64,000 nucleotides of DNA from Cyanidium caldarium (Eukaryota > Rhodophyta > Bangiophyceae > Cyanidiales > Cyanidiaceae), in NCBI GenBank assembly GCA_026184775.1, contig JANCYW010000002.1, forward strand, positions 186,001-250,000, in the 5' to 3' direction. A program made the translations under genes and the position numbers. Positions within the stretch are counted from its first letter, which is position 1, and each line of letters starts with the position of its first letter. Positions 17,980 to 21,624 of the stretch are shown here, piece after piece. The notes below the pieces were generated by a model. That model was not told the DNA's origin. It did no database searches and saw nothing but the letters and a program-made list of their open reading frames with translations.

Positions 17980-20900
17980 TTATGGCTCTGTCTCCTTCCC
18001 CAGCTGCATCAGTTCATCCATAAATTGGCGGGGCGTCAGCAGCGACGTGCCACCGATGACCACCTGCAGGTGGCATTGTTGCGCGAGAGCGTACCCCAGC
18101 TGCACCTCCGCCGCACACACACCACCCAGCACCAACAGCAGAAACTTTTCGTCGGATGCAAAAGCCGCAGCGGCGGCCGGTCGAGCGGCATGCCCGACGC
18201 TCTGGCTGCGACCGGCGCTGACACTGCGTGAGCGCTCGCGTTTGCGCTGCGACCGCGCCGGACGCGGCGAGTTGGCGGTGCGGGCGCCAGCGGCAGGGCC
18301 TTGCGGGGAATCCAACGCGGTAGCGGCGGCGGCGGCGGCGGCGCCGAACTCCTTGGGCGAATCGGCCTCGTTATCGGTGTCGTCGTCGTCATCGACATCC
18401 GACGGGGCGTCCCGCTCGCCCAACACGCTCGGATAGCTCCACACGCGCTCGCCGGTGCGCCGATCCGCTTCGATGTACTGCAGGAAGATGTGCCGCAAGA
18501 CGGGCTCGAACGCCATGGCGTCGCGGCTGTGTGCCCGTCGGCGAGCGCTCTTGGCGCGACGGCGTCGCCGTGCTCGCGCCGCTTTGCACGCCAGTTTGGC
18601 GGCGTTCATCCGGTCCAACAGACCACGGGCGGCGGCGCGCACGTACGCCCGCATCTCCTCGGTGAAGGCCGGAGCGGCATCTAGCAGCGCCGACCAGCCG
18701 GTGGGATCGCGCGCCGCTGCATACAGCAACAGCACGCGCATCTGGTCGTGCGGTTGGAAGCGGTCGGCACGCAGCACGCTCTCGACGCGCCGCTTCAGCG
18801 AGGCGGTGCTGACGCGTCGACCATCGGATGCGCGTCGCCCACTCACCAGTTCGTCCTCCAGCGGCAGCAGCTCCGGCAGATGCCGCCGGTCGTATTCGCG
18901 CAGACACTGATTCACCGCGCTGATATGCCACTCCAGCTGGCGGATGCGTTCGAAGAGGTCGGGCGTGCCACGCGCCAACTCGCCCAGCTCACGCAGCGAC
19001 AAGTTGTCAGTGCAGATACGGCCATTTTTCGCGGTTGACCGCGCCAACAACTGGCCGACAGTGTCGGTGTGCAGTAACGCGTCCAGTTCGTTGGAGAGCG
19101 CTTCGGCGGCGTCGACCAGGTCGGCATCGCGCAGCCGTCGCCACAGCCGATCGTTCGGCGGCGGCCAGGCGACGCCCGATGCCGGCTCGCCGGATGCCTC
19201 CGCCAGACACGCTCGATAGGAGCGGAGATGCATCAGCGGGGTGAACGGATCGATGGCACGGTCCACCAGGATGGCGTGCACGGCGCTGCCGCCGCTGCCG
19301 CTGCCAGCGTAGGTGGAGGTGAATTTGGGCACTCGCGGCAGCAGCTGCTGCGAGGCGTACGCCTGGGCGGCGCGTGCCACCTGGATGGCCGGCTCGTTGG
19401 CCGCGCTGCTGGTGTGCACCTGAATCCAGGGCAGTTCGTCGGTGTCGATACCGCAGCCGAGCGCGTGGAACACGGTGCCGATCTCCTGACCGAGCGTCTG
19501 CGTCAGCTGCGGGCGCGCAGCGGCGCTGCCGTACAACAGCGGCAACATGTGTCCCGGACAACTCTCCAAGCTGATCAGCCGCTGCTCCATGGCCACGTAA
19601 TCGACCTGCAGCGGTGGGAAGCCGGCGCGGTCCAGCGCCAGCCGTTGCACCAGCGTATCGTGGCGGTCGTCAGTGCCGTCCAGCGTCCGTGTCAAGTACA
19701 CGCGCTGGGCGCATTGCGGGTCGCGCTGGGCGGCCACTTGGATGAGATGCGCAAACGAGCGCTCCACCGGCGACAAAAAGTAAATGGTGGAGAGCGGCAG
19801 GCTGTGGGCGGCGGAACAGGTCTCCTCCAGCGCCTCCACTAGCGTCACACCGCGGCCGACCAGCTCGGAGTGGCGCGCCACCGCCGACAGAATGCGCAGC
19901 GTGCGCGAATCCACCACCAGCACGCGCCAGCCGTTGGCCTGCGGGCGCGCACACTCCAGCAACTTGTCCAGGGTCAGCCGCCGCGTGTTGGCCAGGATGG
20001 AGAATCCCTCGTCCGACTCCGACTCGTCATCGGCCTTCAGGACGAAGTTGCTCTGGTCGGTGGGCAGCGGCGGCGGCGGCAGCGGCTTCAGCAGGCCACC
20101 ATCGCCGTTCAGCGTTTTTCCGGCTGCATCGCCCTGCAGGAACACCTGGCCGTCGCGGAACACCAGCCCCTGCTCGGCCAGGTCGCCGTCGAATGCGGGT
20201 GTGACGACTGCATCGGCCGCACCGCCTTTGGCGTGCTGCAGGCGACGACGACGGCGATGACGCCGTATCCACCACCCCAGCACGACGACAGCGATGAGCG
20301 CCAACACTCCCAACGTGACCCCCACCGCAATGCCCGCCGTGGCGCCGGCGTTGCCGCTGCCGGAGCTGCTCGTCGGCGACGGCTCAATGACCGTGGGCAG
20401 CGTGGCATTGCGGTTGCACTCCACTGCGCCCAATCGGGTGCCGCTGGCCAGCGAGCCACCGCACACGTAGCGGTCGAGGCGGTTCTGGAAGGTCTGCAGT
20501 TGCGCCGCATTCACGACGCCGGCGTACTCGGCGCGCACCGAGCCCGAGCGCAGGCCGACCAGCGCCAGTGGCGGCTGCGACAGCAGTAGTTGCCGCGTGT
20601 TGGCTCCGTCCAACAGCGCCCGGGTCACTGCACTGTTGGCGTCGGCGGTGAACTGATGCAGTTCGATGTCGGTGAAGTGTAGCGTGAACACCACTCGCTC
20701 GCTGCCGGCGCCCTGAAAGGATGGCAACGGCAGCACCGTGGCCAGTGGGGCTGCGGTCGTGGTCGCCGACGAGGCGGCGCTGCTGACCGCGCCGGTGGTG
20801 GGCGGTGGCAGCGGTGAATGCGTGGCGCTATCGCCCGTCGCCCGCCGCACCTCGATGTTGGCGTAGCGCACGCCCGGATTCCGGGAGTTGAACAACGCCC

Positions 20901-21624
20901 AAGTGCCGCGACGCAACGAATCATCCTCGGCGCTGATAATGCGCTCCCCGTCCACATAGATACGCAGACTGCTGCCGCGGCACTCGGCGCGGATATTCAC
21001 AAAGCTGCCGAACGGAAAGGCCGGGGCGCCGGAGGCGCGCGCCACCGTCGACCACCGGCCGTGCACTTTCTTCTGCAGCTCGCGCACCGCCGGCAGCACG
21101 GAACCGGCACCGGGCGATGGCGTTACCCCGGGCGCCAGCGATGTGCCCTCGGTGGTGGAGCGCGACCGCCACACGAAGCGATACGCATTGTCCGCATCGA
21201 CAAGGCGAAACATCACCCCGATCGGGCCGGGAAACAGCGCATTCACATCCACCGACAACGAGTAATCGGTCCAGTCGCTTGCGCCATCGCCACGATACTC
21301 TAAATAGGTGCCCGCGAAGGGGTCGGTGGCGCCAGCGCCCGCGTACACGTTGCGAATTTGCGCGGCCACCGCCCCGCTGCGATACCGCTCGCCGTCGGAC
21401 GCCACGTCACTAGCAATCCACTCCGACGGCACTCCGACGGCACCCGTATCCACCGGTTTGAATAGAGAAGAATTCAATGAACACACCGGACTGTGGCAGG
21501 AGCTGAACGTGGTGGAGAAGAGCACCGCACCGGTGGCGCCCTGCACACCCAGCCACGCGCCAGCCCATAGAATAAGCAAGACAGTCCCCCATATCCATAG
21601 CCCGGGCGCTCTGCACGCGCCCAT
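17980..21624 (-). CDS. Receptor-like Sec1/Munc18 protein: signal peptide, lectin-like ectodomain, membrane span, SM domain, 1214 aa
   Basis: Residues 1-30 form a signal peptide (LWIWGTVLLILWAGAWLG). Residues about 33-262 resemble a LamG/concanavalin-like beta-sandwich (SDWTDYSLSVDVNAL, GVMFRLVDADNAYRFVW, LRIYVDGERIIS). A second module spans about 308-408 and may be SEA-like (HFTDIELHQFTADAN ... VRAEYAGVVNAAQLQTF). A clear membrane helix lies at about 430-452, followed by RRHRRRRR. From about 548 to the end runs a full Sec1/Unc18 domain: WRVLVVDSRTLRILSAV near its start, VDRAIDPFTPLMH, RVLLLYAAARDPTG, FEPVLRHIFLQYIE, LLLVLGGVCAAEVQLGYAL and LTPRQFMDELMQL at the end. SM proteins clasp SNAREs for membrane fusion and are normally soluble; the match is closest to exocytic Sec1. 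One unbroken frame from the ATG at 21624 covers everything, so a fused gene is read directly. Confidence 0.88.
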   Translation of the reverse strand: MGACRAPGLWIWGTVLLILWAGAWLGVQGATGAVLFSTTFSSCHSPVCSLNSSLFKPVDTGAVGVPSEWIASDVASDGERYRSGAVAAQIRNVYAGAGATDPFAGTYLEYRGDGASDWTDYSLSVDVNALFPGPIGVMFRLVDADNAYRFVWRSRSTTEGTSLAPGVTPSPGAGSVLPAVRELQKKVHGRWSTVARASGAPAFPFGSFVNIRAECRGSSLRIYVDGERIISAEDDSLRRGTWALFNSRNPGVRYANIEVRRATGDSATHSPLPPPTTGAVSSAASSATTTAAPLATVLPLPSFQGAGSERVVFTLHFTDIELHQFTADANSAVTRALLDGANTRQLLLSQPPLALVGLRSGSVRAEYAGVVNAAQLQTFQNRLDRYVCGGSLASGTRLGAVECNRNATLPTVIEPSPTSSSGSGNAGATAGIAVGVTLGVLALIAVVVLGWWIRRHRRRRRLQHAKGGAADAVVTPAFDGDLAEQGLVFRDGQVFLQGDAAGKTLNGDGGLLKPLPPPPLPTDQSNFVLKADDESESDEGFSILANTRRLTLDKLLECARPQANGWRVLVVDSRTLRILSAVARHSELVGRGVTLVEALEETCSAAHSLPLSTIYFLSPVERSFAHLIQVAAQRDPQCAQRVYLTRTLDGTDDRHDTLVQRLALDRAGFPPLQVDYVAMEQRLISLESCPGHMLPLLYGSAAARPQLTQTLGQEIGTVFHALGCGIDTDELPWIQVHTSSAANEPAIQVARAAQAYASQQLLPRVPKFTSTYAGSGSGGSAVHAILVDRAIDPFTPLMHLRSYRACLAEASGEPASGVAWPPPNDRLWRRLRDADLVDAAEALSNELDALLHTDTVGQLLARSTAKNGRICTDNLSLRELGELARGTPDLFERIRQLEWHISAVNQCLREYDRRHLPELLPLEDELVSGRRASDGRRVSTASLKRRVESVLRADRFQPHDQMRVLLLYAAARDPTGWSALLDAAPAFTEEMRAYVRAAARGLLDRMNAAKLACKAARARRRRRAKSARRRAHSRDAMAFEPVLRHIFLQYIEADRRTGERVWSYPSVLGERDAPSDVDDDDDTDNEADSPKEFGAAAAAAATALDSPQGPAAGARTANSPRPARSQRKRERSRSVSAGRSQSVGHAARPAAAAAFASDEKFLLLVLGGVCAAEVQLGYALAQQCHLQVVIGGTSLLTPRQFMDELMQLGKETEP

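Follow-up and report, generated by a model that had tools for sequence, protein, structure and literature searches.

The window analysed here is a stretch of 64,000 nucleotides from the hot-spring red alga Cyanidium caldarium (C2:186001-250000, in a genome of 8,787,356 bases and 20 contigs), and its minus strand carries a gene (17980..21624) which is predicted to encode a type I membrane-anchored Sec1/Munc18 (SM) protein. SM proteins, which partner SNAREs universally, are regarded as soluble. In the single open frame of 1214 amino acids (aa) the predicted order is signal peptide, jelly roll, SEA-like module, membrane helix and Sec1 domain, and this order, first reported in a first-pass annotation of the same DNA, is confirmed. 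Orthologues, paralogues, fold prediction and the cysteine pattern uphold the domain plan and the type I topology given there, with two corrections: at least five receptor-like SM genes are present in the C. caldarium genome, so the window gene is no one-off, and its Sec1 half is derived. Such proteins may tie recognition outside the cell to secretion.

The frame runs from an ATG at 21624 to a stop at 17980, and with the local base composition the probability of 1222 open codons arising by chance is about 1.4e-12, so the claim of one uninterrupted 1214-residue frame was well founded. The guanine and cytosine (GC) content of the window is 62-70%; for C. caldarium 063 E5 the genome report gives 8.79 Mb, 65.7% GC and fewer than 50 introns (PMC9812998), and because introns are so scarce a gene of 1214 codons without any is normal in this species. 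An artefact, either an assembly join or a frame passing through two genes, has to be weighed here: a single open frame is by itself compatible with it, and long spurious open reading frames are common in this GC-rich genome. The fused order is repeated, however, in P0002 (1192 aa, from another assembly, 94% identical), in P0003 (1329 aa, a distant orthologue from a metagenome cluster of 31 sequences, with precomputed Pfam assignments PF06439 and PF00995) and in a paralogue on contig C9, where a single frame matches both halves of the window protein. The plan recurs in the C12 protein, P0008 and others, and the scarcity of introns (PMC9812998) also speaks against the artefact, which is thus held to be highly improbable; an assembly error joining two genes and a chance frame were both rejected on these grounds. 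The two halves did not turn up as separate genes in any species, though the search for them was not exhaustive, and a third homologue search returned no further fused protein among the matches listed and missed P0003 itself.

The topology was judged from hydropathy and composition. A signal peptide is predicted at residues 1-30 (21535..21624, minus strand, as for all features below), with a hydrophobic core at 9-27, which by hydropathy is consistent with the signal peptide proposed earlier; N-terminal hydrophobic stretches are found likewise in the C9, C12, C1 and C3 proteins, in P0003 and in P0008. The membrane helix, placed at about 430-452 in the first-pass annotation, is called at residues 431-449 (20278..20334; mean Kyte-Doolittle value 2.78). 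Directly behind it stands GWWIRRHRRRRR, with the polybasic stop-transfer IRRHRRRRR at residues 453-461 (20242..20268), and a basic flank follows the helix also in P0003, C9, C12 and C1 and, more weakly, in C3. A weaker third hydropathy peak (residues 1162-1180, 1.78) lies inside the Sec1 part. A predicted cytosolic linker (residues 462-559, 19948..20241) is 28.9% identical to P0003 over 462-555 (24/83). All five ectodomain cysteines are kept in P0003 and three of the five in C9, while in the cytosolic part 1 of 11 is kept in P0003 and 2 of 11 in C9; this retention fits an oxidising space for the ectodomain and the cytosol for the Sec1 part. Aspartate and glutamate make up 8.1% of the ectodomain and 12.1% of the cytosolic part. 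The signal peptide, the one helix and the basic residues on the cytosolic side are, by hydropathy, those of a type I single-span receptor-like protein, a reading to which the arginine-rich flank on the Sec1 side, the cysteines, the orthologues and the paralogues all lend support. With a helix and a signal peptide, both called from hydropathy, the protein departs from the soluble or peripheral state usual for the SM family.

The Sec1/Munc18 domain occupies residues 560-1214 (17983..19947) and is assigned by Pfam, by PDB relatives and by the tree. PF00995 matches residues 568-1204 over profile positions 2-575 of 575 (E 2.2e-41; 143.2 bits against a cut-off of 30.7), and in PDB the domain comes closest to syntaxin-binding proteins of the Munc18 type (4cca, E 5.7e-24). 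The C-terminal motif LTPRQFMDELMQL, already pointed out in the annotation, is kept and begins at residue 1196. Residues about 1011-1150 are polybasic or of low complexity, and in the alignment a polybasic run at residues 1014-1035 (18520..18585) lies near the position where soluble Sec1 rows carry YELSRYxP. A segment of this kind is absent from the window protein, P0003, C9 and C1 and is partial in C3, whereas it is retained in C12-type proteins, in both soluble paralogues (with N for P in C17:58k) and in fungal and other Sec1 rows. Since Sly1 and Vps45 rows also lack it, it is a feature of Sec1 proteins and not of SM proteins in general. Arginine runs are found near this position in the window protein and P0003, and C9 is arginine-rich as well. 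Because the segment is missing and arginine runs are found there, the Sec1 half of the window gene is, judged from its sequence, derived and set apart from the rest of the family plan. The description "complete exocytic-type Sec1 domain" was right as to the full Pfam profile and the Munc18-type relatives and too strong as to the altered region 1011-1150 and the missing segment.

Over the whole C. caldarium genome 10 Sec1-domain loci lie over the Pfam cut-off and one more is marginal. By best solved relatives, Sly1 is represented on C14, Vps45 at C12:261k, Vps33 on C19 and a soluble Munc18-type protein at C17:244k. Seven loci are Sec1-type, each scoring best against Sec1s in a panel of four Sec1s (fungal and Naegleria), Sly1, two Vps45s and Vps33; the window protein matches Sec1s alone in this panel, and not Sly1, Vps45 or Vps33. 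For five Sec1-type loci compared with PDB (the window gene, C17:244k, C3, C1 and C17:58k) syntaxin-binding or Sec1 chains came first. Five of the seven have a hydrophobic segment at the N-terminus, then an ectodomain, a helix and a Sec1 domain: C2 (the window gene), C9, C12:190k, C1 (read as 2176 aa) and C3 (1228 aa if the upstream start is used). The ectodomains vary: those of C2 and C9 join a lectin-like to a SEA-like module, and that of C12 is a Ser/Thr/Pro stalk; EGF-like stretches are recognised by eye in C3 and C1, the Pfam EGF matches of C1 being under the cut-off. The anchored protein of C12 is CDCA_CDCA12G3433 (P0004) and has an orthologue in Cyanidiococcus, and two further proteins show a shortened form of the plan. 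At a hydropathy threshold of 2.2, a strong helix before the Sec1 domain was called in 8 of the 24 profile-search matches listed (P0004-P0008 and P0010-P0012, including two Cyanidiococcus proteins); P0009 is an N-terminally truncated C12-type model, and the remaining 15, fungi and Naegleria included, have no such helix. Among the matches listed, then, this predicted receptor-like set, at least five strong in C. caldarium, is confined to Cyanidiophyceae or to entries without a taxon, its spread outside Cyanidiophyceae being a lower bound, and no orthologue labelled Cyanidioschyzon or Galdieria appeared there. By sequence assignment the set coexists with soluble Sec1, Sly1, Vps45 and Vps33.

The SM protein of C1 (L031:4360 to L011:5890, 2176 aa) has a stalk of Thr-Pro repeats that is very long, together with several ectodomain units and, ahead of its helix, an EGF-like stretch; the frame beside it (L011:6601 onward) repeats the stalk design. 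On C7 a frame of 901 aa (L030:999-3704) gives a sub-threshold Sec1 match of 23 bits and is perhaps a very divergent Vps33-like SM protein.

In a Sec1-only tree of 22 rows, which omits the genome's Vps33, Sly1 and Vps45, a metagenomic Vps45 and the Metschnikowia Sec1, all Sec1-type rows of C. caldarium, Cyanidiococcus and close kin group together with support 98/99. Inside this group the window protein, C9, P0002 and P0003 form one branch (98/95), and C12, C1, Cyanidiococcus, P0005-P0007, P0011 and P0012 another (94/93). In the best tree the soluble C17:58k protein stands next to the window and C9 proteins (91/83), and C3, P0003, C17:58k and C1 are on long branches. A single clade of all anchored SM proteins is not part of the best tree but is not rejected (approximately unbiased test, p 0.097). 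In a first tree of 27 rows with Sly1, Vps33 and Vps45 the window group took in the long branch of Vps33 (88/81), and this placement is read as a long-branch artefact. Both trees leave out the marginal Vps33-like piece of C7 and P0004, P0009, P0010, P0019, P0020 and P0022-P0025. The Sec1-type gene on C17 that adjoins the window/C9 branch (L014:887-3916; 91/83) has no helix, and its product begins MGNALCG, presumably resembling an N-terminal acylation signal.

The N-terminal module (residues 33-262, 20839..21528) is predicted to fold as a lectin-like jelly roll of the concanavalin type, with CBM66 and thrombospondin C-terminal domains as the closest solved structures, and the LamG or lectin-like region proposed earlier is supported to this extent. 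The predicted model has the jelly roll characteristic of PF06439 and CBM66; it was built from six rows, some of them from PF06439 proteins, and may therefore be biased toward that fold. PF06439-bearing proteins also align with this module. A Ser/Thr/Pro-rich stalk (residues 263-299) follows. A lectin-like module could also face the secretory lumen as a cargo receptor of the ERGIC-53/VIP36 type, with the ectodomain binding glycoprotein cargo and the cytosolic Sec1 domain licensing fusion of the carrier; we consider this unlikely.

The second module (residues 300-402, 20419..20727), called possibly SEA-like before, is real and conserved: it is 50.5% identical between the window protein and P0003 (52/103) and is common to the window protein, the C9 paralogue and a receptor-type kinase on C7. 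In that kinase the module and a helix precede a protein kinase domain (PF07714), with E 2.4e-10 over module plus helix. In an alignment of four rows, from which the C1 and C3 rows, misaligned in a first version, had been removed, R, G, S and V of an RxGSV motif are invariant, G-S-V being residues 361-363. SEA domains cleave themselves at a G-S turn between two strands. In a low-confidence model two strands are joined by a turn that holds the G-S-V, and the order of strands and helices is compatible with SEA, the model of the whole ectodomain being poor (mean predicted local distance difference test, pLDDT, 42.2; 42 for the SEA-like reading). No Pfam SEA match to the window protein was obtained at E 1, and profile searches of PDB with two alignments, one with the misaligned C1 and C3 rows, gave no significant match for the module (best E 0.019, 2lyi, and 0.13). 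As the sequence searches gave nothing significant, the SEA identity is a lead rather than a finding. The kinase (L012:1954-4587 on C7, minus strand, 877 aa) has the module and helix in the manner of the window protein, which suggests that a SEA-like module may have been exchanged between kinase and SM outputs. On C5 another frame (L044:178-1659) has EGF-like stretches and a helix like that of the window protein and no evident SM or kinase domain.

With regard to function, it is held to be slightly on the probable side that type I membrane-anchored SM proteins tie recognition of the wall or surface to secretion. The Sec1 domain would face the cytosol, and the ectodomain would lie in the secretory lumen or beyond the plasma membrane. 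In the growing cell wall, which is rich in protein, the ectodomain would bind glycan or matrix, and this binding would place, hold or switch the Sec1 domain where secretion takes place, there to template or hold plasma-membrane Qa-SNAREs of the SYP1 type, so that the SM set would couple the state of wall or surface to secretion with neither a separate tether nor a second messenger. We infer this function from SNARE partners, phase bias, few tethers and a precedent for anchoring. As to partners, four SNARE-domain loci and four synaptobrevin loci lie over the cut-off in the C. caldarium genome (below-cut-off matches in prokaryote controls: two and one, respectively), and on C12 a longin-synaptobrevin R-SNARE gene stands head-to-head with the anchored SM gene, about 0.2-0.3 kb apart (L042:788-1627 / L010:2527-6573). 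As to phase, 6 of 10 SM genes of C. caldarium are diploid-biased, expression of the pair of SYP1 syntaxins is phase-specific in Cyanidiococcus and in Cyanidioschyzon, and a joint action of SM and SYP1 proteins in wall construction is proposed (PMC13353863). As to tethers, Cyanidioschyzon merolae is without most exocyst and HOPS subunits and has kept all four SM classes (PMC1810245), its exocyst being treated in a second source too (PMC6784791); a search of the C. caldarium genome for Exo70 gave no match, from which nothing follows as the control was silent too. As to anchoring, a Munc18c peptide fragment artificially anchored in the membrane boosted fusion in vitro, though not when it was on the vesicle membrane (PMC9547204). 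A more far-reaching idea, tentative and rather doubtful at present, is that SM-output receptors have evolved in Cyanidiophyceae, in which binding of a ligand or matrix outside would act directly on SNARE assembly, and the state of wall or surface would gate exocytosis in one molecule.

Several observations weigh against a surface-recognition function coupled to secretion. The PF06439 scores are 16.1 bits in the window protein and 25.4 bits in P0003, both under the cut-off of 26.8, and glycan binding by the jelly roll is putative, the predicted fold being its sole basis. Among the C. caldarium SYP1 genes one is diploid-biased and the other slightly higher in haploids, below the threshold, and the published text is silent on which SM genes are diploid-biased (PMC13353863). 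The R-SNARE gene on C12 is the neighbour of a sister gene, and the arrangement could be due to chance.

Conservation gives a mixed picture. Between the window protein and P0003 residues 33-425 are 44.4% identical (163/367) and the Sec1 core (560-1010) 34.9% (152/435), and because the ectodomain is here the better conserved part, recognition outside may be under the stronger constraint in the window lineage. This pattern is confined to the P0003 comparison: against P0002 the values are 95.4% for residues 33-425 and 97.3% for the Sec1 core, against C9 28.9% for the ectodomain and 32.9% for the core, and in the C12 lineage the order is clearly reversed, with 30-41% for the ectodomain and 59% for the core. 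The Sec1 core evolves fast between window and P0003 (domain 1, 23.9%, 33/138; residues 701-1010, 40.1%), and with the YELSRYxP-like segment missing as well, ordinary SM activity is doubtful; the window copy may have moved away from canonical SNARE binding or adopted a modified SNARE partner. Carried further, the protein would have given up its SNARE function and be chiefly a surface lectin or adhesin, its decayed Sec1 half surviving as a scaffold or as an adaptor in the cytosol. The lower identity of the core to P0003, the missing segment, the polybasic insert and a Sec1 score of 145.6 bits, second lowest of the 10 loci over the cut-off, all fit such decay; the entire Pfam profile is still matched, however, the C-terminal motif is retained and the core is no less similar to P0002 than residues 33-425 are, and decay is judged an improbable explanation.

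Placed beside known systems, the window protein is closest to the Sec1/Munc18-1 type (STXBP1/2/3, yeast Sec1, plant KEULE), with homology over the full Pfam profile and matches and tree pointing to the exocytic-type branch; it differs by the added signal peptide, ectodomain and membrane span and by the altered domain-3 segment. The members of this type known to us are soluble or peripheral. KEULE is called membrane-associated in a 2026 study which also counts 10 SM genes each in Cyanidioschyzon, Cyanidiococcus and Cyanidium (PMC13353863), and those of Cyanidium are very probably the 10 loci over the cut-off found here. For this expansion the main text of the study gives counts and phase bias, and the word "transmembrane" occurs in it twice (methods, reference list), never of SM proteins (PMC13353863). 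The N-terminal module shares its predicted fold with the jelly rolls of CBM66, PF06439 (3-keto-disaccharide hydrolase) and thrombospondin C-terminal domains, but scores under the Pfam cut-off and is fused to an SM domain instead of an enzyme. Receptor kinases with lectin or SEA ectodomains are alike in type I plan, the C7 kinase sharing the SEA-like module and helix as well, and differ in cytosolic output, which is a kinase there and an SM domain here. Searches of the open PMC literature on membrane-spanning or red-algal SM proteins turned up no SM protein with this plan, subscription papers being largely outside it, and the earlier statement that none had been described agrees with this, although the expansion of SM genes itself is already in print (PMC13353863).

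In Cyanidiophyceae the hosts are genetically tractable, and walled diploid and wall-less haploid phases express SM genes differently (PMC13353863), so the idea is directly testable. Natural and conserved membrane-spanning SM proteins with differing ectodomains would represent a new control of membrane fusion from outside the cell or from the lumen, and would offer a natural test of the effect of anchoring an SM protein.

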